A stretch of DNA of 32,064 nucleotides. Origin: Pseudomonadota bacterium. Lineage in GTDB: Bacteria; Myxococcota_A; UBA796; SXON01. This document shows positions 2,693 to 28,798 of the stretch, piece after piece; the first letter of the stretch is position 1; the number at the start of each line of letters is the position of its first letter. The notes below the pieces were generated by a model, which was given only the letters and a program-made list of their open reading frames with translations, made no database searches and was not told the origin of the DNA. Both the position numbers and the translations under genes were made by a program. The stretch covers positions 1 to 32,064 of the forward strand of contig SXOM01000167.1 in NCBI GenBank assembly GCA_005776735.1. The letters run 5' to 3'.

Positions 2693-5600
2693 ATGCTCCG
2701 TACCCGTCTCGTGGCCCCCGGCCTGCTCCTCCTCCTCGCCGCCTGCGCCGAGGCGCCGGTCGGGGACACCTCGCTGGACTCCGCACGCCCGGGTGTCGAC
2801 ACCGCCGGTGCCGCCAAGGTGATCGTCTCCAGCGCCGACGGCGACGGCGACGGCTACGACTCGAGCGTCGACTGCGACGACACCAACGCGAGCATCAACC
2901 CCGGGGCGGCGGAGTCCGACAACCTCACCGACGACGACTGCGACGGGTATGTCGACGAAGACTTCGTCGCGGCGGGCGACGTCCTCATCACCGAGGTCAA
3001 CAAGCGCTCGTTCGTGGGCGGCACGCTGGTGCAGTACAACGCGTCCTGGGTCGAGGTGTACAACAACAGCACGCGCACCGTCGACATGTCGAACTGGACC
3101 ATCGCGCGCGGCCACAGCACCGGGCAGCAGGTCGCGCTCGATCCCGCGTCGGCGCCGATCCTCGCCCCTGGCGACTACGCGGTCTTCTGCGACACCAACG
3201 ACTACGAGGGCAGCGCGGCCGCCTACCCGCTCACCTGCGACTACTACTGGGGCGACGAGTCCCAGGCGGCCACCTACCAGGGCGCGTACCACAACAACGT
3301 CTGGTACATGCGCAAGGACTCCGACGCCTTCGCGCTCTACGTCAATGGCAACCGCAGCACCGGCACGTTGGTCGACAAGGTCGACTACTACTACGACGCC
3401 ACCAGCGGCTACTGGCCGTACCAGGTGCGGTTCTCGATGTCGCTCGACCCGGCGTACTACGACGCCACGCTCAACGACAACGTCGGCGCGTGGTGCACCA
3501 CCAACGAAAACGCCTCCAACCTCGGCGTGCCGAGCACCACCTACCGCTGGTACGACGTCTCCGGCTCGGCCTACGACGAGTACGGCACCCCGGGCGCCGA
3601 AGGCACCGACTGCCAGAACGACCCCGACCTCGACGGCGACAGCTACAGCGGCGCCACCGACTGTGACGACGGCGACGCCGCGATCAACCCCGGCGCCACC
3701 GAGGTGTGCGACGGGGTCGACAACGACTGCGACGGGAACGTCGACAACGCGGGCGGCTACCTCGACGCCGACCTCGACGGCTACGGCGATCCCGCGTCGC
3801 CGGGCGGCTGCTCGGGGTCGGGCACCTACGTCACCAACAGCGACGACTGCGACGACACCAACGCCGCGGTGAGCCCCGCCGAGGTCGAAGCCGACAACCT
3901 GGTCGACGACGACTGTGACGGCTGGGTCGACGAAGACTTCGTCGCCGCCGGCGACCTCGTCATCAACGAGATCAACAAGCGCACGCTCAACGGCGGCACG
4001 GCGCTGGACAACGACGGGAGCTGGGTCGAGGTCTACAACACCTCGGCGCGCTCGGTGAGCCTCGCCAACTGGGTCTTCGCCCGCGGCACGAGCTCCTCGG
4101 GCAACCAGATCTACGTCGACCCGGACACGGCGCCGGTGGTGGCGGCGGGCGGGTACGCGCTGTTGTGCGACTCCAACGACTTCGAAGGGAGCGCGGTCAC
4201 CTACCCGTTGGCCTGCGACTACTACTGGGGCGACGAGAGCCAGGCCGCCACCTACGTGGGCACCTACCACGACAACACGTTCTACATCCGTCGCGACGCC
4301 GACACGCTCGCGCTGTACATCGGTGGCGACCGGACCACGGGCACGCTGATGGACAGCGTGGTGTACGCGTCGGGGTGGCCGAGCAAGGCCCGCTGGTCGA
4401 TCGGGCTCGACCCCGACACGCAGGACACCACGAGCAACGACAGCTCCGCGTCGTGGTGCAACACCAACCTCGGCGTCGAGAGCGACAGCTACCGGTGGTG
4501 GGACAGCTCGGGCACCACGCACGACGAGTACGGCACGCCCGGGGCCGCCAACTACGACTGCGCCACCGACCTCGACGGCGACGGCTACGACACCACCACC
4601 GACTGCGACGACACCGACAACACGATCAACCCCGGCGCGACCGAGGTGTGCGACGGCGTCGACAACGACTGCGACACCCTCATCGACGAGGGCCTGGGCG
4701 GCACGACCTACTACGCCGACGCCGACGCCGACACCTACGGCGATCTGGCCACCACCACCACGAGCTGCTCGGGTAGCCCGCCGGTGGGCTACGTCGCCGA
4801 CAGCACCGACTGCGACGACACCGACGCCAGCGTCAACCCCGCGGCCACCGAGGTGTGCGGCGACGGCATCGACCAGGACTGCGTCGACAACAGCGCAGTG
4901 TGCGAGTTCTCCGGCACGCAGGAGATCAAGGCGGCCTACGACTTCCGGGCCTACGGCACCGCCGCGAACATGGCGGTCGGCACCGCGGTGTGCAACAACG
5001 GCGACTACGACGGCGACGGTTACGACGACGTGGTCGTGGGCCAGGGCTTCTACGACGGCACCGCCACCGACATGGGCCGGGTCAACCTGTGGTACGGCCC
5101 GGTCACCACCGCCGACGACCTCACGACCGCCGACTACACCATCGACGGCGACTCCAGCCGCAACAGCGACCAGTTCGGCTCGACCACCCGCTTCGCCGGC
5201 GACGTCGACAACGACGGCAGCGACGACCTGTTCGCGGCCGCGTGGCGTTCGCACGCCGACGACCGCGGCACCGCCTACCTGTTCTACGGCGGCAACGCGT
5301 CGAGCTCGGTCAGCGGCGCCGACGCGAGCTTCAGCATGACCGGCACCACCACCTACGTCGGCTTCGCGCTCGACGGCGGCGACGCCGACGGCGACCTGCA
5401 GTCCGACGTCATCGTGAGCGCGTACGGCTACTCGTCCGGCGCGGGCCTGGTCGCCTACTACGACGCCACCACGATCAGCGGCGCGGAGGACCTGTCCACG
5501 TCGGCGACGGCGCTCTTCACCAGCGCCACCGCGGGCGAGAACCTCGGGTACTCCATCGCCATGGGCGACGTCGACAACGACGGCCTCGCCGACGCCATCC

Positions 5601-6265
5601 TCGGCGCGCCTTCGGCGTCGAGCGCCACCGCCACGGGCGGGGTGTACGTGTACCTCGGCCTCGGCTCGCTCACGGGCACGCTCGCCACGACCGCGGCCGA
5701 CTTCGTGCTCACCGGGGGCACTGCCGCCGATCGGGCCGGTCTCTCGGTCGCGGCGCTCGGCGACCACGACGGCGACGGCGCGGGCGACTTCGCCCTCGGC
5801 GCCGACAAGTCCGACCTCGCGTCGGCCGACGCAGGCGCGGTCTACATCATCACGACCTTGCCCACCGCGTCCAGCACCGCGGCGGCGGCGGCGGAGTCCA
5901 TCCTCACCGGCGAGGTCGCGTCCGACTTCTTCGGCCGCAGCGTGGCGAACGTCGGCGACGAGAACGGCGACGGCACCACCGAGATCATGGTGGGCGCGAC
6001 GGCGTGGGACTACGGCTCGCTCAGCGGCGCGGGCGCGGCCTACCTGTGGTACGGCCCGGTCGCGAGCGGCACCACGAGCGCGTCGACCTACGACGCCCGG
6101 TGGACGGGCGCGAACACCTCCGACGCGGTCGGCTACCAGCTGAGCGGCGGCGGCGACGTCAACAACGACGGCCTCGCGGACTGGATGTCGAGCGCCACGA
6201 GCTGGGACGGCTTCGGCTACCTCAACTCGGGTGGCTCGTGGTTGTACTACGGCCAAGGCCAGTAG
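2693..6265 (+). CDS. Large lipoprotein with MopE-type metal-binding motifs, two lamin-tail-like domains and C-terminal FG-GAP repeats
   Basis: ATG 2693; lipobox LLLLLAAC. About five DGDGYxxxxDCDDTxxxINPGAxE...DDDCDGxVDE motifs; two LITEVNKR/VINEINKR...WVEVYNxSxRxVxxxNWxxARG domains; C-terminal DxDNDGxxDxxxGA repeats. Confidence 0.88.
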   Translation: MLRTRLVAPGLLLLLAACAEAPVGDTSLDSARPGVDTAGAAKVIVSSADGDGDGYDSSVDCDDTNASINPGAAESDNLTDDDCDGYVDEDFVAAGDVLITEVNKRSFVGGTLVQYNASWVEVYNNSTRTVDMSNWTIARGHSTGQQVALDPASAPILAPGDYAVFCDTNDYEGSAAAYPLTCDYYWGDESQAATYQGAYHNNVWYMRKDSDAFALYVNGNRSTGTLVDKVDYYYDATSGYWPYQVRFSMSLDPAYYDATLNDNVGAWCTTNENASNLGVPSTTYRWYDVSGSAYDEYGTPGAEGTDCQNDPDLDGDSYSGATDCDDGDAAINPGATEVCDGVDNDCDGNVDNAGGYLDADLDGYGDPASPGGCSGSGTYVTNSDDCDDTNAAVSPAEVEADNLVDDDCDGWVDEDFVAAGDLVINEINKRTLNGGTALDNDGSWVEVYNTSARSVSLANWVFARGTSSSGNQIYVDPDTAPVVAAGGYALLCDSNDFEGSAVTYPLACDYYWGDESQAATYVGTYHDNTFYIRRDADTLALYIGGDRTTGTLMDSVVYASGWPSKARWSIGLDPDTQDTTSNDSSASWCNTNLGVESDSYRWWDSSGTTHDEYGTPGAANYDCATDLDGDGYDTTTDCDDTDNTINPGATEVCDGVDNDCDTLIDEGLGGTTYYADADADTYGDLATTTTSCSGSPPVGYVADSTDCDDTDASVNPAATEVCGDGIDQDCVDNSAVCEFSGTQEIKAAYDFRAYGTAANMAVGTAVCNNGDYDGDGYDDVVVGQGFYDGTATDMGRVNLWYGPVTTADDLTTADYTIDGDSSRNSDQFGSTTRFAGDVDNDGSDDLFAAAWRSHADDRGTAYLFYGGNASSSVSGADASFSMTGTTTYVGFALDGGDADGDLQSDVIVSAYGYSSGAGLVAYYDATTISGAEDLSTSATALFTSATAGENLGYSIAMGDVDNDGLADAILGAPSASSATATGGVYVYLGLGSLTGTLATTAADFVLTGGTAADRAGLSVAALGDHDGDGAGDFALGADKSDLASADAGAVYIITTLPTASSTAAAAAESILTGEVASDFFGRSVANVGDENGDGTTEIMVGATAWDYGSLSGAGAAYLWYGPVASGTTSASTYDARWTGANTSDAVGYQLSGGGDVNNDGLADWMSSATSWDGFGYLNSGGSWLYYGQGQ

Positions 6266-14802: not shown

Positions 14803-17421
14803 ATGCGCCCCTCCTTCCTGCTTCCCCTCGTGCTGCTCTTGGGGTGCCCGCCTGTCCCCGACTCCGACCCGGGGAAGGACACCGCGCCAAAGGGCCCGGC
14901 CGACGTGGACAACGACGGGTTCGACATCGAGTCGGATTGCGACGACGACGACGCGGCGGTGCACCCGGGGGCCGACGAGCTGTGCAACGAGATCGACGAC
15001 GACTGCGACGGCGTGGTCGACGATGCGCCGGTCGACGAGTCCACCTGGTACGCCGACAGCGACGGCGACGGGTTCGGGGACGCGTCCACGTTCCAGCGGT
15101 CGTGCAGCCAGCCCGCGGGGCTGGTGGCCGACGCCACCGACTGCAACGACGCCAGCGCCGACTACCACCCCGGCGCGCCCGAGACCGGCTGCACCGGTCC
15201 CGACTACAACTGCAACGGCACCTACGACGAGGGCGACGGCGACAGCGACGGGTACATGGCCTGCGACGACTGCGACGACACCCGGGCCGAGGTCAGCCCC
15301 GAGGGGGTCGAAGCGTGCGACGGCCTGGACAACGACTGCAACGGCACGATCGACGACGGCGCCGGCGGTTCGCAGACCTACTACCTCGACGCCGACGGCG
15401 ACCTGTACGGCGACCGGACCGAGCCGGTCGAAGCCTGTGCCCTCCCTCCCGGCTACAGCGAGACGGGCAACGACTGCGACGACGACGACGCCACCATCCA
15501 CCCCGGCGCCGACGAGACGTGCAACGGGATCGACGACGACTGCGACGACGATCGCGACGAGAACCCGATCGACCCCGACACCTTCTACGCCGACGGCGAC
15601 AACGACGGCTACGGGTCGAGCGCGGTCACCGCGGCCGCATGCGACGCGCCCGCCGGCTACGTCGCCGCCTCCGGCGACTGCAACGACCGCAACGCCAGCA
15701 TCAACCCTGCCGCGCTCGAGTATTGCGGGGGTACGGACTGGGATTGCGACGGCGCGGTCAACGAAGCGGACAGCGTCGACATCGCTTCGTACTACGAGGA
15801 CACCGACGGCGACGGGTACTACGGAACGTACGCGGGTGCGGCCTGTACCGCGCCTTCGGGCACGAGCTTCTCGAGCACCGACTGCGACGAGAGCGACGCC
15901 ACCATCAACCCCGCGGCCGATGACGTGTGCAACGACGTCGACGACGATTGCGACGGCGCCACCGACGACGGCAACCGGGTGCCCGAGGACTATGCGTCCA
16001 TCCAGTCGGCGGTGCTCGCGGCGTCGGCCGGCGAGCGGGTGTGTGTCGCGGGCGGCACCTACTACGAGGACGTCGACTTCTCCGGTCACAGCGTGATCCT
16101 CGAGGGCGAGGACGGTTCGGGGTCGACGACCATCAAGGGCACGGCCACGGGGTCGGTCATCACCATCGCTTCGGGCGAAGCGGCGCCCGAGCTGCGCGGC
16201 TTCACCATCACCAACGGCGACGCGGCGTACGGGGCGGGCCTGTACCTGTACGGGTCGCCCGCCGTGCTCGACGACCTCGTCATCACCGGCAACTCGTGCA
16301 CGGACACCTACTGCTACGGCGTGGGCGCGTATGTCTACTACGCCGACGTGCAGGCCACCGACGTGGAGATCTCCGACAACGCCGCGGTGCCGGCGGTCAC
16401 CAGCTCCACCACCTACTACTACACTTCGGGCGTCGGCCTGATGTACGCGGGTTCCTACGGTACGTGGGACGGCCTCACGGTGTCGGGGAACTACGCCTAC
16501 TACAGCGGCCTCTCCAGCAGCTCCCAGTACGGCTACGCCTACGGCGTCGGCATGTACCTGTCGAGCGACCACAGCACGATGGAGAACATCGTCGTGTCGG
16601 ACAACTACGCGTACCGGGGCTCCAGCACCTACGGCTACATCTACAGCTACGGTACCGGGGTCTACGCCAACTCGGGCGACTCGACGTTCGACGGCCTGGA
16701 GATCAGCGGCAACTACGCGTACCTGTACGGCACCTACGACTACATCACCGGGGCCGGCCTCTACTCCTACTACGACACGTGTGATTACAACCACCTCGAC
16801 ATCCGCGGCAACACGGCGGACGCCTACAGTATCAACGGCGTCGGGGCCTACATCGGGTACAACTCCACGCCGACCATCACCAACGCGGTGATCGCCGGCA
16901 ACAAGGGAACGTACTCGGTCAGCGGCTACAACTACATCCAGGGTGTCGGATTCGTCGCCGGCCAGAACGCGATCCCCGTGCTCACCAACGTCGACATCTA
17001 CGGCAACAAGGGCACGGCCGACTATGTGTACGGCGCCGGTATCTACCTCGACTACTACGGCGGGATCGACGCCACCAACATCGCGGTGTGCAGCAACACG
17101 GCGGCCTACAGCTCCTCGGGTGGCGGCGGCGCCGTGTACCTGTACTCGAGCAGCTACTCGTCGGGCTATTCGTTTGCCTACTCCAACTTCTACGGCAACA
17201 GCAGCAGCGAGTTCACCAACCTGTCCACGGTGGTCGGCTCGTCTGGCAACATCGCGGTCACCCCGGGCTACACCAGCGTGGTCTCGAGCGACCCGACGGC
17301 GTGGGACCTCACCCTCACGGCCAGCTCGTCGATGAAGAACGCGGGCGACGCGACGATCACCGACACCGACGGCACGCGCTCCGACATCGGCAGCCAGGGC
17401 GGCCCCGGCGGCGGCTGGTAG
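14803..17421 (+). CDS. Lipoprotein with tandem MopE-type metal-binding motifs and a C-terminal tyrosine-rich right-handed beta-helix
   Basis: 872 aa. Lipobox LVLLLGC; repeated DCDDDDAxxHPGADExCNxIDDDCDG; then beta-helix-like rungs (VITGN..., ISGNYAYLYG..., NVDIYGNKG...). Confidence 0.85.
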   Translation: MRPSFLLPLVLLLGCPPVPDSDPGKDTAPKGPADVDNDGFDIESDCDDDDAAVHPGADELCNEIDDDCDGVVDDAPVDESTWYADSDGDGFGDASTFQRSCSQPAGLVADATDCNDASADYHPGAPETGCTGPDYNCNGTYDEGDGDSDGYMACDDCDDTRAEVSPEGVEACDGLDNDCNGTIDDGAGGSQTYYLDADGDLYGDRTEPVEACALPPGYSETGNDCDDDDATIHPGADETCNGIDDDCDDDRDENPIDPDTFYADGDNDGYGSSAVTAAACDAPAGYVAASGDCNDRNASINPAALEYCGGTDWDCDGAVNEADSVDIASYYEDTDGDGYYGTYAGAACTAPSGTSFSSTDCDESDATINPAADDVCNDVDDDCDGATDDGNRVPEDYASIQSAVLAASAGERVCVAGGTYYEDVDFSGHSVILEGEDGSGSTTIKGTATGSVITIASGEAAPELRGFTITNGDAAYGAGLYLYGSPAVLDDLVITGNSCTDTYCYGVGAYVYYADVQATDVEISDNAAVPAVTSSTTYYYTSGVGLMYAGSYGTWDGLTVSGNYAYYSGLSSSSQYGYAYGVGMYLSSDHSTMENIVVSDNYAYRGSSTYGYIYSYGTGVYANSGDSTFDGLEISGNYAYLYGTYDYITGAGLYSYYDTCDYNHLDIRGNTADAYSINGVGAYIGYNSTPTITNAVIAGNKGTYSVSGYNYIQGVGFVAGQNAIPVLTNVDIYGNKGTADYVYGAGIYLDYYGGIDATNIAVCSNTAAYSSSGGGGAVYLYSSSYSSGYSFAYSNFYGNSSSEFTNLSTVVGSSGNIAVTPGYTSVVSSDPTAWDLTLTASSSMKNAGDATITDTDGTRSDIGSQGGPGGGW

Positions 17422-18006: not shown

Positions 18007-18081
18007 TGGGGCGTCGACAAGCGGTAAGTCAAGGGACTTTGACTCCCTCATCCGAAGGTTCGAATCCTTCCGCCCCAACCA
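18007..18081 (+). tRNA. tRNA-Gln (anticodon TTG), CCA encoded
   Basis: Cloverleaf folded by hand: acceptor TGGGGCG/CGCCCCA, D-stem GAC/GTC, anticodon stem AGGGA/TCCCT with loop CTTTGAC, T-arm GAAGG-TTCGAAT-CCTTC, then A+CCA. Confidence 0.95.
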
Positions 18082-18579
18082 CTAGGTAGAACGCCGGGTA
18101 TTTCGATGTGACGGAAGGTGCTCCCAGCGAATCACGGCGTTGATAGAGGAGTTCCTGCGTTCGGGTTCGGCGGCGAGCAACTCGGTGGCGAGGGCGTCGG
18201 GGTGTTCCGCTCGGAGCCCGATTGTGGTGAGGGCCTCGTCGGGGAAGTCCGACAGGTTGTAGGTGACGATCCTTGGGGCCTGGGCCGCAATCGCGGTGCC
18301 GACGACATGCGCATCGTCGGGGTCGGGGAGCGCGATGTCCACGGGCGTTGGCGGGACGGCGCCGCGCGGAAACGCCCGGGTCATGGCCCCCCGCAGCCGG
18401 TGCCGCTGGTCCTCCGTGATGTCGGGCCGAGTCCTCGCGAGCGCCGCGAAGCACTCGTCCAAGATGCGGCCGGACCACACCGGCTCGATGAGGCCGGCCG
18501 ACCCGAGCCGAAGGAGGAGGTCGCGGACCGCCGCGTCGTAGAGAACGCAGGCGTCGATGACGATTCGGGAGGACGCCAC
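18082..18579 (-). CDS. PIN-domain toxin-like protein (type II TA)
   Basis: 165 aa. IVIDACVLYDAAVRDLL start, DPDDAHVVGTAIAAQAPRIVTYNLSDF (PIN acidic residues). Preceded by an HTH antitoxin. Confidence 0.85.
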   Translation of the reverse strand: MASSRIVIDACVLYDAAVRDLLLRLGSAGLIEPVWSGRILDECFAALARTRPDITEDQRHRLRGAMTRAFPRGAVPPTPVDIALPDPDDAHVVGTAIAAQAPRIVTYNLSDFPDEALTTIGLRAEHPDALATELLAAEPERRNSSINAVIRWEHLPSHRNTRRST

Positions 18580-18585
18580 GCCGTG

Positions 18586-19029
18586 TCAGTCGTAGAGGCC
18601 GAGTTCGTCCGACAGCCCGGTCAACTCGTCCAGCGCGGCACGGCGAGCCTCGTCGTCGCGCCTCTTGAAGGCGAGTACGTCGGCGAGGCGAATCCGTCGA
18701 TGGGTGCCGACTCGCCGGTGCGGGAGCTCGCCCGCGTCGAGCATTGCGACGAGGTGGGGACGGGAGACGTGCAGGAGTGCGGCTGCTTCGTTGGTCGTGA
18801 GCTCCTCGTCGTCGGCGACCACACGCACCGCGTGCCCGTTGCCGATGGTCTCAAGGACGTCTCCAAACACTTCGACGGCGGCGGCAGGCACCACGATCTC
18901 GATCACGCGTCCGGCGCGATCCTGGACGCGAAGAACGGCGTCGGCGGGACTCGACACGTCCGCCAAGGCTTCGCCGGCCTGGCGGGCGGTTCGCACCGTG
19001 TCGCGGTCCGGGGTGGTGTGGATGGACAT
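18586..19029 (-). CDS. Helix-turn-helix (excisionase/MerR-like) antitoxin partner of the PIN toxin
   Basis: 147 aa. ELTTNEAAALLHVSRPHLVAMLDAGELPHRRVGTHRRIRLADVLAFKRR is an excisionase-type HTH; 6 nt upstream of the toxin gene. Confidence 0.82.
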   Translation of the reverse strand: MSIHTTPDRDTVRTARQAGEALADVSSPADAVLRVQDRAGRVIEIVVPAAAVEVFGDVLETIGNGHAVRVVADDEELTTNEAAALLHVSRPHLVAMLDAGELPHRRVGTHRRIRLADVLAFKRRDDEARRAALDELTGLSDELGLYD

Positions 19030-19032
19030 GGA

Positions 19033-19341
19033 TCAAGGATAGCCACCGTACGGCCTAAGTGCAATATGTGAAACGCTGTCGCGCTCACGGATTCGGGCAC
19101 GCCGACGGCGGCGGGGGGCGAAGGACTCGAGCCACGGTGACCGGCCGAGGTCGAACATGGCAGCGGGGCGATGGGTGGCGAGGAGCGGGCCGAGGGTGGC
19201 GTAGTCGATCACCTCCTCGGGCGTGATCATGGCGACCTGGGCGCGGGCGAACCGCACCCGGCGGACGGGGGTGGTGCTCCCCCAGTCGGGGTTGTGGTAG
19301 TCGGTCCCCCGGAGGCTGGTGCCGCTCGAGTCCCAATGCAA
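19033..19341 (-). CDS. Hypothetical protein (possibly truncated), between the J1-like gene and the HTH antitoxin
   Basis: Open frame extends back to the stop of the 19399 gene. Text ...VESFWHEGRGPELLRLHWDSSGTSLRGTDYHNPDWGSTTPVRRVRFARAQVAMITPEEVIDYATLGPLLATHRPAAMFDLGRSPWLESFAPRRR looks like real protein; the basic tail may be a frameshifted end. Start codon uncertain (TTG or GTC-region). Confidence 0.45.
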   Translation of the reverse strand: MHWDSSGTSLRGTDYHNPDWGSTTPVRRVRFARAQVAMITPEEVIDYATLGPLLATHRPAAMFDLGRSPWLESFAPRRRRRARIRERDSVSHIALRPYGGYP

Positions 19342-19398
19342 CCGGAGTAACTCCGGCCCGCGGCCCTCGTGCCAGAACGATTCGACGTGTATTGGGGA

Positions 19399-19773
19399 TC
19401 AAGGTGCCGCCGTGAACGAAGCCACCACCTCGATCTCACCGACGAGCGCGTCGTTGAACGCTTCCAGCTCCTCCGCCGGGATCCAGTACTCCTCGTGCTC
19501 GCGCGCGCCGACGACGTGCCGCTCGTACCGGTCCAGGAACGCCTTCCGCACCGCGAAGCGCGTCACGAACCCGACGCCGCTCTCCTTGACGTTCCAGCGC
19601 TCGGCGATCTCCCGCGCGTAGGCCTCGTTCGTCACCGGGTAGAAGATCGGCTGATCAGGCAGACGGCGCGGCCAGCGCAGCCAGCCCGAAGCCGCTACGA
19701 GCGCGAGCTCCTTCGGGCCGGTGGGGCGAAACAAGGTGACGACGTCTTCCACCCCGCCCTCGTACTCCCGCAT
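19399..19773 (-). CDS. Small conserved-type protein of the family often auto-annotated 'ADP-ribosylation/crystallin J1' (function unknown)
   Basis: 124 aa from ATG 19773, or 117 aa from GTG 19752, which is the start shared with the two truncated copies. VEDVVTLFRPTGPKELALVAASGWLRWPRRLPDQPIFYPVTNEAYAREIAERWNVKESGVGFVTRF...EYWIPAEELEAFNDALVGEIEVVASF. Family name recalled, not searched. Confidence 0.7.
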   Translation of the reverse strand: MREYEGGVEDVVTLFRPTGPKELALVAASGWLRWPRRLPDQPIFYPVTNEAYAREIAERWNVKESGVGFVTRFAVRKAFLDRYERHVVGAREHEEYWIPAEELEAFNDALVGEIEVVASFTAAP

Positions 19774-19821
19774 CCACGGGCCGGCATCGTCGCCGGGCGC
19801 CTTCGGCGCTATGATTGCTGC

Positions 19822-20094
19822 ATGTCCGCACCTGCCCGCACCGTCGATGTCGCCACCGCGCTGCCTTGGGGTCGCGCGGGAGAGCCCGACGTCCGCGCGC
19901 TGGCTCGCGAGCTGCGCCTGCTCTGGATCATCGAGGAGGTTCGCCAGCACCGCCTCGGGGTCGGCAAGGGCGCCGAGCTGGCGGACGTGCCCCGCGCGGC
20001 GTTCATGCGTGTCCTCGGGGAACATGGCGTGCCGGTGATCGACTACTCGGCCGACGATCTCGAGCGTGAACTCGGCACCTTCGGTCCCGGGTGA
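19822..20094 (+). CDS. UPF0175-type antitoxin
   Basis: 90 aa. ALARELRLLWIIEEVRQHRLGVGKGAELADVPRAAFMRVLGEHGVPVIDYSADDLERELG matches the UPF0175 pattern; overlaps the downstream toxin by 4 nt. Confidence 0.75.
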   Translation: MSAPARTVDVATALPWGRAGEPDVRALARELRLLWIIEEVRQHRLGVGKGAELADVPRAAFMRVLGEHGVPVIDYSADDLERELGTFGPG

Positions 20095-20576
20095 TCGTCG
20101 TTCCGGACGCTGGCCCGCTGATCTACTTGGCGGGGGCGGGCCAGATCGAGTTGTTGCGGACCCTCTACACGGAAGTGGTCGTGCCACGGGTCGTCTACGA
20201 TGAGGTCACCGTCGGCGGCGCGGGGCTGACAGGCAGCGCGGAGGTTGCGGCGGCCGCGTGGATCCGGGTCGTCGACCAGGCTCCTGACGCCACGCTCCTC
20301 GGTCGCCTGGACGCAGGTGAGGCGGCGGCGATTCCACTGGCGGCGGCGTTGGGTGCGATCCTCCTTGTCGACGACGGGGAGGCGCGCGCTGTAGCCGGGG
20401 AGCGCGGCATCCCTGTCATCGGGAGCCTGGGCGTGCTGCTCGGTGCGAAGCAGCGGGGGCACGTCGCAGCGGTCCGTCCGGTTCTGGACCGGATGATGGA
20501 GCTGGGGATGTTCGTGTCATCGGCGCTCCGGGCGCGTGTGCTCGTGCTGGCGGGTGAGGGCGACGGCGGAAGTTAG
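20091..20576 (+). CDS. DUF3368-type PIN-like toxin
   Basis: 161 aa. IVVPDAGPLIYLAGAGQIELLRTLYTEVVVPRVVYDEV...LDAGEAAAIPLAAALGAILLVDDGEARAVA...GSLGVLL; GTGA overlap with the UPF0175 gene. Confidence 0.85.
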   Translation: MIVVPDAGPLIYLAGAGQIELLRTLYTEVVVPRVVYDEVTVGGAGLTGSAEVAAAAWIRVVDQAPDATLLGRLDAGEAAAIPLAAALGAILLVDDGEARAVAGERGIPVIGSLGVLLGAKQRGHVAAVRPVLDRMMELGMFVSSALRARVLVLAGEGDGGS

Positions 20577-20634
20577 AACTCCGCGAGTGGCTTCGGGGAC
20601 GCATCGAGGTCCGCGCGCGAGGCCGCTTACGGCG

Positions 20635-20724
20635 CTACTTCGCCGCCATCAAATACTCGAACTCCTCGATGGCGCTCTCCCCTGGATCGACCCAGAAAGT
20701 TCTATAATCATCCAATATGCCCAC
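20635..20724 (-). pseudogene. 29-aa coding-like remnant ORF (VGILDDYRTFWVDPGESAIEEFEYLMAAK)
   Basis: GTG 20724 directly abuts the stop of the truncated J1-like copy (20725-20727). Short but protein-like composition. Confidence 0.3.
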
Positions 20725-20904
20725 TCAGCCAGGCCGCCACGGGCCGCCCGACGAGCCCGCGAGCCGTGCGTAGGCCTCGTTCGTCACCGGGTAGAAGCTC
20801 GGCTGCTCGGGCCGCCGAGGGGGCCAGCGCTTCCAGCGCGAAGCCGCCACGAGCGCGAGTTCCTTCGGGCCGGTCGGGCGGTAGAGGATGACGACGTCTT
20901 CCAC
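20725..20904 (-). pseudogene. Truncated copy 2 of the J1-like gene (59 aa)
   Basis: V-EDVVILYRPTGPKELALVAASRWKRWPPRRPEQPSFYPVTNEAYARLAG... aligns with the N-terminal half of 19399-19752, then diverges and stops. Confidence 0.75.
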
Positions 20905-21028
20905 GGCTGCCCTGTACTCCCGCTCGCCGCCTCCGGCATCGTCGCCGCGCGCGCCTCGTTCTTCACGACGGCGACCGCGCGGTTATAACGTCGTTCATAC
21001 GAGGTGCCCCATGGTCAAGACGCTCTCC
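20831..21028. repeat. Direct repeat copy A flanking the AbrB-Doc module
   Basis: 198 nt; gapless alignment with 21697-21894, about 165/198 identical by hand count. Spans the J1-like 5' end, the intergenic promoter region and the first 18 nt of the antitoxin. Confidence 0.8.
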
Positions 21029-21232
21029 CCGATCGGCAACAGCCTGGGACTCATCATCGACAAGGCGATCCTTGATCTTCTCGGGATCTCCCGCGACACC
21101 CCCCTGGACATCAAGACGGACGGGGAGGCGTTGATCATCCGACCGGTGCGGACCGAGGCCACCACCGTCGCCGACTCGACGCGCCGGATGATGGACGTGC
21201 ACGCGGAGACGCTGCGGAAGCTCGCGAAGTGA
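21011..21232 (+). CDS. AbrB/MazE-type antitoxin
   Basis: 73 aa. MVKTLSPIGNSLGLIIDKAILDLLGISRDTPLDIKTDGEALIIRPV (SpoVT/AbrB fold signature); GTGA overlap with doc. Confidence 0.88.
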   Translation: MVKTLSPIGNSLGLIIDKAILDLLGISRDTPLDIKTDGEALIIRPVRTEATTVADSTRRMMDVHAETLRKLAK

Positions 21233-21633
21233 GGTTCCTGTCGGCCGCGGAGGTGCTGGAGATCCACGCGGCCCAGCTCGCACGCTTCGGAGGAGGGAGC
21301 GGCGTGCGTTCGCCGGAGCTGCTCGAGTCCGCGGTGGCGCAGGCGGAGGCGACGTTCGCAGGCGAGTACCTTCACGTGGACGTGTTCGAGATGGCGGCGG
21401 CGTACCTCTACCACATCGTCCAGAACCACCCCTTCGTGGACGGGAACAAGCGCGCGGGGCTGCTGAGCGCTCTCGTGTTCCTCGATCTGAATGGCAGGAC
21501 GGTCGGGGTCTCGGACGAGCGGCTGTACGCGATGACGATGGCGGTCGCGAGTGGGGAGGCCGGGAAGGAACAGGTCGCCGCGCTCTTGCGGGAGCTGGCC
21601 GAAGGCGCGTCGCTACCAGGGGATGTTCGTTAG
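21229..21633 (+). CDS. doc: Death-on-curing (Doc/Fic) family toxin
   Basis: 134 aa. HPFVDGNKRAGLLSALVFLDLNGR matches the Doc HxFx(D)xNKR motif; follows an AbrB-type antitoxin. Confidence 0.9.
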   Translation: MRFLSAAEVLEIHAAQLARFGGGSGVRSPELLESAVAQAEATFAGEYLHVDVFEMAAAYLYHIVQNHPFVDGNKRAGLLSALVFLDLNGRTVGVSDERLYAMTMAVASGEAGKEQVAALLRELAEGASLPGDVR

Positions 21634-21692
21634 AACCCACCACGTCTCTCGCGGGCCCTTTCCAGGTCCCTCGACGTACGCGTTCAGCGGTC

Positions 21693-21770
21693 CTACTTCC
21701 AGCCGGACGCCGCCACCAAGGCGAGCTCCTTGGGGCCGGTCGGGCGGTAGAGGACGACGACGTCTTCCAT
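21693..21770 (-). pseudogene. Truncated copy 3 of the J1-like gene (25 aa)
   Basis: MEDVVVLYRPTGPKELALVAASGWK* aligns with the first 25 residues of copies 1 and 2. Confidence 0.7.
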
Positions 21771-21894
21771 GTCTGCCCTGTACTCCCGCTCGCCGCCTCC
21801 GGCATTGTTGCCGCGTGGGACTCCTCCTTCACCATCGCGGCCGTGTGGTCATTACATCGTTCCTACAGGGTGCTGCATGGTCACGACGCTCTCC
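21697..21894. repeat. Direct repeat copy B flanking the AbrB-Doc module
   Basis: See 20831-21028. Ends with an antitoxin-start remnant ATGGTCACGACGCTCTCC (MVTTLS). Confidence 0.8.
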
Positions 21895-22829
21895 AGGACG
21901 TTCGGCGATACGCGATCCAGGAAGCGGGTGACCGACGAGCGCCACAGCGCGGCGTCTGCGGAGTAGAGGCCGACGTGGCCCGCGCTGGGGAACACGACGA
22001 GCTCAGAGGGTCCCGCCAGCGAGGCACGAATGGACTCGACCTCGGCGAGGTGTGCCCGAGGATCGTCCTCTCCATTGAGGAGCAGGGTCGGCGTATCGAT
22101 GTTCGCCGCGAAGTCGACAGGGTTCATCTCGAAACCGTTGAACCCGAGCTCGACCCCGCCCCAGAAGACCAGCAGCGCCGCTCCGGGTTGCGCGGGGAGG
22201 CCCATCGCCTCGAACCGGTGGCCGACCGTCGTGAGGAGCCGGTCATAGGGGTTCTCGAGGACCAGGGCGTCCGCAGCGGCACCCAGCACCCCGACCGCGC
22301 GCAGCACCGCGGCGCTCCCCATCGACTTGCCGAACAGCACCACACGACCGTCGCCTTGGTGTGCGTTGGCGAGCGCGGCGACGATGTCCGCCTCGGCCCA
22401 GCCGAGCGACGTGGTGTTGCCAGGCGACTCCCCGGATCCCGGGAAGTCCACCATCACCGTTGTCCAGCCCGCGGCGTGGAGCACCGCGGCCTCGTCGAGC
22501 AGGTCCGACTTGGACCCGCCGTATCCGTGGAACAGCAACGCCGTCCCTCGGCCTGACCCCGGAACGGTCCAGGTTGACACCCCAGCCTGTACCGTACTCG
22601 AGGCGACGAGGCCGACATCGACGGGAAGTCGGCTCACGGTCGGTCTCGGCACCACGACGCCGGTGAGGGCCACCGCGATGCGCTCGGTCGCGGAGAGGGC
22701 TTCTGGATTGCCGGTCTTCGCCCCATCCGATGCGAAGTGGGTGAACCGCCAGGCGTGCGCGGCGACGATGACGTTGCCGCATGCGAGGGCGACAGACGCG
22801 GCGAGTACCGCCTGGCGACGACGCGTCAC
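21852..22829 (-). CDS. Alpha/beta hydrolase with N-terminal signal anchor
   Basis: GTG 22829, 325 aa. LLFHGYGGSKSDLLDEA, GKSMGSAAVL (GxSxG nucleophile elbow), NGEDDPRAHLAEVE and SAGHVGLY (catalytic His). Confidence 0.88.
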   Translation of the reverse strand: MTRRRQAVLAASVALACGNVIVAAHAWRFTHFASDGAKTGNPEALSATERIAVALTGVVVPRPTVSRLPVDVGLVASSTVQAGVSTWTVPGSGRGTALLFHGYGGSKSDLLDEAAVLHAAGWTTVMVDFPGSGESPGNTTSLGWAEADIVAALANAHQGDGRVVLFGKSMGSAAVLRAVGVLGAAADALVLENPYDRLLTTVGHRFEAMGLPAQPGAALLVFWGGVELGFNGFEMNPVDFAANIDTPTLLLNGEDDPRAHLAEVESIRASLAGPSELVVFPSAGHVGLYSADAALWRSSVTRFLDRVSPNVLESVVTMQHPVGTM

Positions 22830-26674: not shown

Positions 26675-26764
26675 CGGGGAGGCGCGCCGCGACCGACCGC
26701 TTCGAGCCGGTTTGGCGTGCGCGCGCCTCGGCGCGGGGGCGACGCTGCGATAACGCCGGGCCCC

Positions 26765-28798
26765 ATGCTCCTGTCGTGCTGGCTCCTGGCCTGTGACTCC
26801 GACGGCTCCCGCGTGGAAGCCGCGCCGGGCGCCGACACCGCCGCCGACACCGCCGCCGACACCGGTGACGTCGCCGCCGACACCGCCGACACCGCCGACA
26901 CCGCCGACACCGGCGATACAAGTGATACATCCGTCGATTCGGATACGGGATCGTCATGGGAGTTGCCTGAGCGTCCCGATCTCGACGCGCCGGCCGCCGA
27001 TGTGTCGTGGCGCTGGGGGGGAGGGGAGGGCTACCCCGACGCGGTGGACCCGACGTGGCCGGTGGTCACTCGGGTCTCCGACCGGGCGAGCCTCGAGGCG
27101 GCGCTCGGCGCGGCGGTCGCGGGCGACGTGGTGTGGGTCGAGGACGGTGTTTCCATCGACCTGACCGGGGCTTCGCTGTGTGTGCCCGCCGGGGTGTGGT
27201 TGGCCGGAGGCCGAGGCCAAGGTGGGGAGGGCGGGGCGCTCTTGTACAGCACCGCGGGCTCCAGCTCGCCGGTGCTGCGCGCGTGTGGGGACGGGGTTCG
27301 CATCACCGGGCTGCGGCTGCGTGGGCCCGACCCGGACACCTGTCCGGCCGAGTGGCCCGACCGGTGCCCCGAGGACGTGGCCGGCGACCCCAACTGTGCG
27401 TACTGCACCAAGACCGCCTACGCGATCGGCACCGACGGTTTCGACGCGCTCGAGGTGGACAACAACGAGCTGAGCGGGTGGACGTACACCGCCGTGGGTG
27501 TCAAGAACGCCGTGGGGGCCGACGTCCACCACAACCACATCCACCACGGGTGGCGTGAGGGCCTGGGCTACGGCGTGGTGTTGTACGGAACCGGCGCCAC
27601 GACGGCGATCATCCGTTGGAATCGGTTCGACGCCATGCGCCACGCCGTCGCCGGGCAGGGCTACGCGACCGAAGACTACGAAGCGCGCGACAACCTCGTC
27701 GGGACCGAGTCGATCGGCCACGTCTTCGACATGCACGGCCAGGACGAAGCGACCGGCGACGGGAGCAGCGCCGCGGGCGGGGACCTCCGCGTGCATGGAA
27801 ACGTGGTGCTCGTGCCCGACCAATACTCGTTCGTCGTGCGCGGACGCCCCGACACCGGTGCGTGGTTCTACGACAACTGCGTGGCGCCGGCGAAGGCTTC
27901 CGCCTACGACCAGCGCTATTTCACCGGCAACTTCTGGGTGGACCAGGCCCCCGACGGCAGCGCGGCGCCCAACGCCTATGGGCAGGGTGCGTCGGACTGC
28001 GGGACGGTGCGCTGGTGTGTCGCCGATCGGGCCAGCGGCCCCTACGCCTACGGGAGCGCGAGCGGAACCGACGTCTCGGGTCTCCGGGTCGGGGACTTCG
28101 ATGGCGACGGGCAGGACGACGTCTTCTCGACCACCGGGAGCCAGTGGCGGTGGGCCAACCCCCACGGGGGCAGCTGGGCCGCGCTGGCGACCTCCGGCGA
28201 CGCGCTCGACGACCTCGGCCTCGCCGACCTCGACGGCGACGGCGTCACCGACGTGTTCATCGCGACGGGCGCGGCGTGGCGGTGGTCACGCAGCGGGACC
28301 GGCTCCTGGTCGACGTTGCGATCCTCCACCCTCGGACTCGACGACGTACGCTTCGGGGACTTCGACGGCGACGGGGCCACGGACGTCTTCACCAGCGAGG
28401 GTGGCCGGTGGTACGCCTATCCTTCGGGCTCCGGGGCGGCGGTGGCGCTGGCCTCGTCCGGGGTGGACATCGCGGCGCTCCAGCTCGGCGACTTCGACGG
28501 AGACGGCGTCGCCGACGTGTTCTACGCCGACGGGACCGAGTGGCGCTGGTCGCGGTCGGGCACCTCGAGCTGGGCCACGCTTGCGTTGGCCTCCACCACC
28601 TCGGTGCGGCTCGCCGACGTCGACGGCGATGGGCGTACGGATGTCTTGGGGGTGTCGGGACACACGTTGCGTTGGTCGCGCAGCGGCGCGACGAGCTGGG
28701 CCGACCTCCGCCACCAGTCCGAGGGGCTCGACGACGTGCTCCTTGGCGACTTCGACGGGGACGCCGCGGACGACCTGCTCGTCGGTGGGTGCCTGTAG
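26765..28798 (+). CDS. Lipoprotein with Asp-Thr repeat linker, beta-helix-type domain and C-terminal FG-GAP/VCBS repeats
   Basis: ATG 26765; MLLSCWLLACDSDG. DTAADTAADTGDVAADTADTADTADTGD linker; ITGLRLRG...NNELSGWTYTAVGV...HHNHIHHGW; repeated GDFDGDGxxDVFxxxGxxWRWSRSG. Confidence 0.87.
   Translation: MLLSCWLLACDSDGSRVEAAPGADTAADTAADTGDVAADTADTADTADTGDTSDTSVDSDTGSSWELPERPDLDAPAADVSWRWGGGEGYPDAVDPTWPVVTRVSDRASLEAALGAAVAGDVVWVEDGVSIDLTGASLCVPAGVWLAGGRGQGGEGGALLYSTAGSSSPVLRACGDGVRITGLRLRGPDPDTCPAEWPDRCPEDVAGDPNCAYCTKTAYAIGTDGFDALEVDNNELSGWTYTAVGVKNAVGADVHHNHIHHGWREGLGYGVVLYGTGATTAIIRWNRFDAMRHAVAGQGYATEDYEARDNLVGTESIGHVFDMHGQDEATGDGSSAAGGDLRVHGNVVLVPDQYSFVVRGRPDTGAWFYDNCVAPAKASAYDQRYFTGNFWVDQAPDGSAAPNAYGQGASDCGTVRWCVADRASGPYAYGSASGTDVSGLRVGDFDGDGQDDVFSTTGSQWRWANPHGGSWAALATSGDALDDLGLADLDGDGVTDVFIATGAAWRWSRSGTGSWSTLRSSTLGLDDVRFGDFDGDGATDVFTSEGGRWYAYPSGSGAAVALASSGVDIAALQLGDFDGDGVADVFYADGTEWRWSRSGTSSWATLALASTTSVRLADVDGDGRTDVLGVSGHTLRWSRSGATSWADLRHQSEGLDDVLLGDFDGDAADDLLVGGCL

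Follow-up and report, generated by a model that had tools for sequence, protein, structure and literature searches.

The locus considered here raises the question of why two direct repeats of nearly 200 nt, each holding the start of an antitoxin gene, stand on either side of an antitoxin-toxin (TA) pair. The window (the whole stretch of DNA analysed, 32,064 nt) is one entire contig of a draft genome of 5.07 Mb in 676 contigs, which is 80.9% complete; the relatives with which it was compared are mostly draft genomes. A preliminary description read the repeats, here called copies A and B, as either the footprint of a duplication or a substrate for deletion of the module. The explanation favoured here is that positions 18007-21895 are probably a tandem array of small TA cassettes, gathered at the 3' end of a tRNA-Gln gene by serial integration, and that copies A and B form the front ends of such cassettes. 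The features concerned are collected in Table 1. Elsewhere in the window, three stretches (2832-6265, 14803-17421, and 26717-28798) encode big repeat-rich proteins with DxDGDGY...DCDD-type repeats and contain many short coding repeats (families D1-D14).

Table 1. Features between the tRNA-Gln gene and the hydrolase gene, with the evidence for each
Feature	Position	Strand	Details and evidence
tRNA-Gln (TTG), proposed anchor	18007-18081	+	3' end ...CCGCCCCAACCA; ARAGORN, Rfam
PIN_3 toxin-like gene	18082-18579	-	Pfam PF13470, 1.2e-13
HTH_17 (excisionase-type HTH) antitoxin-like gene, partner of the PIN_3 gene	18586-19029	-	Pfam PF12728, 1.4e-13
Intact J1-like gene	19399-19773	-	Left end of UPF0175-PIN cassette; no Pfam family; homologues in relatives 45-86% identical
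Partial third repeat copy	19612-19800		84% to copy A; BLAST
UPF0175 antitoxin-like gene	19822-20094	+	Pfam PF03683, 2.4e-13
PIN/DUF3368 toxin-like gene	20091-20576	+	Pfam PF11848, 2e-13
Junction site E	20572-20727	+	GTTAGAAC (holds PIN stop codon), 63-nt spacing, CTACTTC, ...AGAAAGTTCTATAATCATCCA, then CCCACTCA (degenerate tRNA-like end)
J1 remnant A	20764-20952	-	5' part only, 3' half missing; tblastn 75-79% identity, BLAST
Repeat copy A	20831-21028		J1 remnant, intergenic region, first 6 AbrB codons; BLAST
AbrB/MazE-type antitoxin	21011-21232	+	TIGR02609, 1e-05; PF04014, 0.0005; each below cut-off
Doc (Fic-fold, death-on-curing) toxin	21229-21633	+	Motif HPFVDGNKR; TIGR01550; PF02661, 9.5e-20
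Left half of second E	21629-21700	+	GTTAGAAC (holds Doc stop codon), 64-nt spacing, CTACTTCC; severed where copy B begins
Repeat copy B	21696-21894		J1 remnant (~25 codons), intergenic region, first 6 codons of a lost AbrB; BLAST
Alpha/beta hydrolase, right neighbour	21852-22829	-	PF00561, 2e-12

The repeat had been given as gapless and about 83% identical over 198 nt, and pairwise alignment bears this out: 20831-21028 and 21697-21894 agree at 165 of 198 positions (83.3%, zero gaps), with a longest perfect run of 33 nt. The BLAST alignment is slightly longer (20830-21028 against 21696-21894; 199 nt, 83.4%, E = 2e-56). Shuffling one copy leaves 56 ± 6 matches (maximum 80), against 166 for the real pair. 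The edges coincide and are sharp, identity dropping to background on the left and on the right, and the contents are as first described, namely the 5' end of a minus-strand J1-like gene, the intergenic region and six antitoxin codons (MVKTLS and MVTTLS). The full AbrB and Doc genes do lie between the repeats, though the first 18 nt of AbrB are inside copy A. Two things had been overlooked, the partial third copy of 189 nt within the intact J1-like gene and the variable TA array, between tRNA-Gln and the hydrolase gene, in which all three copies sit; a search of the draft genome gave no repeat copy beyond these three.

The enclosed genes have the anatomy of a TA module. The assignment of Doc is well supported (TIGR01550, 64.2 bits against a cut-off of 38.65; HPFVDGNKR fits the HxFx(D/N)GNK motif), and its toxin activity is predicted from gene anatomy. 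The Doc start codon overlaps the AbrB stop by 4 nt. The antitoxin matches are weak (TIGR02609, 25.8 bits against a cut-off of 55.9; PF04014, 20.5 against 24.7). The nearest Doc proteins in relatives reach no more than 54% identity and never have a J1-like gene alongside; plasmid and phage matches all stay under 60%. The J1-AbrB-Doc combination was not found outside the present contig, so the two cassettes of this type proposed below rest on a single contig. As a general TA partner the J1-like gene was rejected, since a survey of 80 J1 loci had the TA proteins of the window next to J1 just once, in the relative G014 itself.

To the right, copy B runs into the hydrolase gene and remakes its end (21852-21896), the final ~14 residues being encoded by the J1-AbrB intergenic region read in reverse. 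Homologues of the hydrolase in relatives align only to residues 300-311, and the tail is read from copy B; copy B has therefore taken the place of the natural gene end.

The same tRNA-Gln heads the locus in genomes G003-G006, G014, and G015, and a J1-like gene lies beside it in G003, G004, G005, G006, and G014. In G006 and G014 the entire interval from tRNA-Gln to the hydrolase is kept, with other TA modules, a changed order, no AbrB-Doc, and neither repeat. Since this empty site has no repeats, A and B came in together with AbrB-Doc instead of marking an older target. The suggestion that the repeats serve as a substrate for deletion finds no supporting allele: loci carrying a single repeat and no AbrB-Doc were sought in relatives and none was seen, the empty site of G006 and G014 having zero repeats. 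The 33-nt perfect run makes deletion by homologous recombination possible, though it was unobserved. For a short ORF between the HTH gene and J1 (19033-19341, minus strand), G014 has a counterpart of 69% identity next to its J1 and G004 has a fragment; the ORF is perhaps another module remnant. A public contig matching G014 (CAMAXZ010000022.1) is labelled Klebsiella pneumoniae, which is incompatible with a GC-rich lineage and is probably a wrong MAG label.

The modules of these loci end in a junction site, E, whose core of 36 nt is CCAGAAAGTTCTATAATCATCCA-N5-(G/C)CC(A/G)ACCA and whose end imitates a tRNA 3' terminus. E ends in GCCCAACCA, resembling the end of tRNA-Gln (...GCCCCAACCA); in the window this end is degenerate. 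An element of 89 nt, at 20635-20723 in the window, is found again at the ends of modules in G004 and G014 (two copies each), G015, G017, and G019. Sites of the tRNA-Gln type start with (C/T)AGAAC, and from there the spacing to the ACTT anchor is exactly 63 nt in 8 of 8 copies, taken from different modules and genomes, although the intervening sequence is poorly conserved. A BLAST query lacking an intact CCNACCA end still retrieved E copies, mostly bearing CCNACCA at a fixed +5. Downstream of Doc, just ahead of copy B, the same two anchors are found; this composite occurs at only two places in the window and in none of 300 shuffles, and at both its first element carries the stop codon of a toxin, the two toxins (PIN and Doc) being unrelated. 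The site after Doc is severed exactly at the start of copy B, the join being a 5-nt microhomology, CTTCC. No E is left between the first TA pair (PIN_3/HTH_17) and J1.

The E core is strongly conserved, and a minus-strand frame ...LDDYRTFWVDP... can be read through it (window 20635-20723; G017:C253, G019:C117, G044:C9, G039:C89). E was considered as a protein tail (frame DDYRTFWVDP), as a known RNA and as a DNA hairpin, and each was rejected: neither the Pfam nor the Rfam search gave a match, and folding is no better than that of shuffles (z = -0.5 to -0.8).

The relation of E to tRNA genes is seen in an exchange of flanks. The right flank of tRNA-Gln in G006 is also the right flank of E in G004 (80% over 300 nt), while the left flanks of the two agree at 44% over 60 nt, random pairs being at ~50%; the J1 stop codon lies exactly 368 nt from the G006 tRNA-Gln and from the G004 E. 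In G036, the same terminator (60 nt at 85.5%) comes after a tRNA-Pro(CGG) and again after an E lying 3102 bp from it, with left flanks at 52%. E is thus a border, and the DNA to its right has the character of a downstream tRNA flank that has been displaced. The marks of tRNA-integrating elements, border repeats of the tRNA 3' end together with a displaced flank, are both present (the G036 terminator and the G006/G004 exchange).

The E core is present in 18 of 63 genomes of this uncultured order and in 1 of 236 sampled genomes beyond it; the reversed pattern gave no match. Across the order it also lies behind tRNA-Pro(CGG) (G044:C9, G036:C20), in many cases with terminator-like hairpins after it; use is therefore not confined to a single tRNA. 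An encoded CCA is missing from the tRNA-Pro of G044. Some E sites have no tRNA within ~15-20 kb upstream (G017, G039). When a unit is defined as having a tRNA or E on its left and E on its right, UPF0175-PIN is found in units of the window, G004, G014, and G039, and HTH_17-PIN_3 in units of G004, G014, and G017. Other payloads are DUF433-DUF5615 and a GNAT toxin with a TacA-like antitoxin in G044 (similar genes, judged by eye, occur at G040), DUF433 plus a partner of no recognised family in G015, and an MqsR-like protein and AbiE in G019. Non-TA payloads include a beta-lactamase-like protein (G036) and a sulfatase (G017), and several E neighbours contain no recognised TA. Viral contigs searched for E gave zero exact matches. 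No recombinase is among the annotated genes of the window locus, and E-bearing contigs have no integrase-type gene among the matches listed.

The array reading is built on the repeats, the differing contents of the orthologous loci, the position of E where modules end, the exchange of flanks between tRNA-Gln and E, and many TA-bearing units; similar cassette stacks occur across the order. Counting against it are the degenerate end of E in the window, the missing E ahead of J1, the E sites far from any tRNA, the payloads that are not TA or not recognised as such, the G044 tRNA-Pro, the unremarkable folding of E, the restriction of J1-AbrB-Doc to this contig and the lack of a recombinase at the locus. 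As the anatomy suggests, a cassette would start directly after CCNACCA, whether at the tRNA or at the junction site before it, hold one TA payload and end in E, which again presents CC(A/G)ACCA and would allow the next cassette to follow. Cassette 1 would be J1/UPF0175-PIN/E, in which the intact J1-like gene faces UPF0175-PIN on the opposite strand just as J1 remnant A faces AbrB-Doc. Cassette 2 would be J1(A)/AbrB-Doc/E', the 3' half of its J1 having been lost, and cassette 3 would be J1(B)/AbrB, cut to 199 nt by two deletions, the left one reaching into E' at the CTTCC microhomology and the right one into the hydrolase gene. The repeats would then be the front part, running from J1 into the antitoxin, that cassettes 2 and 3 have in common, both being AbrB-Doc cassettes. 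Site-specific recombination, circular cassette intermediates and this order of events are inferred from the same anatomy.

The strongest competitor is in-place tandem duplication, in which CTTCC in J1 recombined illegitimately with CTACTTCC lying past Doc, doubling one J1-AbrB-Doc segment, and the second copy then kept only its first 199 nt, so that A and B arose without cassette mobility. Duplication of cassette 2 would yield the same two repeats, and copy B does begin exactly at a 5-nt microhomology (CTACTTCC / GCGCTTCC). The J1 tree joins A and B as sisters (88/93 support), with B evolving faster; its longer branch is what a decaying copy would show, and the cassette reading draws on the same result. 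Against this, identity of 83% would make the event old, and the J1-coding part is less diverged than the intergenic part (11 of 93 against 22 of 88 sites, p = 0.03), hinting that the J1 copies diverged while both were under selection and mildly favouring two separately diverged cassettes. Duplication also leaves E and the variable TA content at this tRNA unexplained, and as a full account it is rather unlikely. The duplication footprint proposed in the preliminary description is partly borne out by the sister relationship and the longer branch of B, but at this identity the pair is no recent duplication and is better taken as equivalent ends of successive cassettes.

That the array belongs to an integron whose attC sites are the repeats or E is much less probable than duplication. 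TA cassettes are typical of chromosomal integrons, and a true integron integrase is present in the genome (443 bits against a cut-off of 265), but the gene is on contig C18 only, and the array is headed by tRNA-Gln, with no IntI there. The RYYYAAC...GTTRRRY pair is absent at the locus, the fold of E is unlike that of attC (z = -0.5 to -0.8), and E and IntI are unassociated across genomes, many E-bearing genomes having no IntI over the cut-off. The integron reading is contradicted on these grounds. The integrase gene itself lies at a contig end (G000:C18:196-1131); further genomes of the order have it too, among them G003, G004, G005, and G006. L088 and L090 show canonical attC pairs. Just as improbable as the integron is a reading of A and B as operators or promoters, duplicated and retained for AbrB-Doc regulation: the repeats hold the divergent J1-AbrB intergenic region, but copy B stands behind the toxin, leads into just six antitoxin codons that are fused to the hydrolase gene, and is the faster of the two to decay. 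Least credible of all is insertion of AbrB-Doc by a transposon with duplication of its target, which would account for a module flanked by direct repeats but is contradicted by a repeat that, at 199 nt, is much too long for a target duplication and includes AbrB's own start, where a short duplication and terminal inverted repeats would be looked for, and by the empty site of relatives, which has no repeat.

If the cassette array is accepted, then a wider proposal can tentatively be made: the tRNA 3' end may be the entry point and E the cassette-borne site of an integron-like system, served by a trans-acting enzyme and specialised in TA modules in this order, a possibility held with distinctly less confidence than the array itself. 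Cassette stacks may be an overlooked means of collecting TA genes, and they bear on the question by what route TA modules build up and relocate on chromosomes when no integron, phage or conjugative element is involved. Being short, searchable and found beside TA pairs from a number of unrelated families, at two different tRNA genes, the junction site provides a testable handle. The repeat pair illustrates how an array would decay, with truncated front ends persisting and damaging a neighbouring gene. No array of this kind was found described in the open literature searched, a scope that mostly excludes subscription papers.

Among known systems, the TA arrays of chromosomal integrons are similar in having small promoter-bearing TA cassettes in tandem, a shared end site and rapid turnover between relatives. 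The present array differs in being anchored at a tRNA 3' end, in a junction site with neither the signature nor the fold of attC, in having no adjacent integrase, in cassettes lying in both orientations and in units that are not all TA. Islands targeted to tRNA genes and tandem integrative elements likewise integrate at a tRNA 3' end and displace its downstream flank, and they too have border repeats of the tRNA end and grow by accretion of units; here, however, the units are ~1-4 kb, the shared tRNA identity is ~8 nt (CCC(A/G)ACCA), and no integrase gene was found in the units. Tycheposons of Prochlorococcus resemble the array in carrying gene cargo at tRNA genes, but are larger elements with their own recombinase, and TA pairs are not known to be their main cargo. 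The name tycheposon was later applied in Methylophilaceae (PMC10872708). AbrB/MazE-Doc and UPF0175-PIN modules of type II have the same gene order and overlap as those found here and, subject to the weak AbrB match, the same domain content; the genes are ordinary, and it is the array and its junction site that are unusual.
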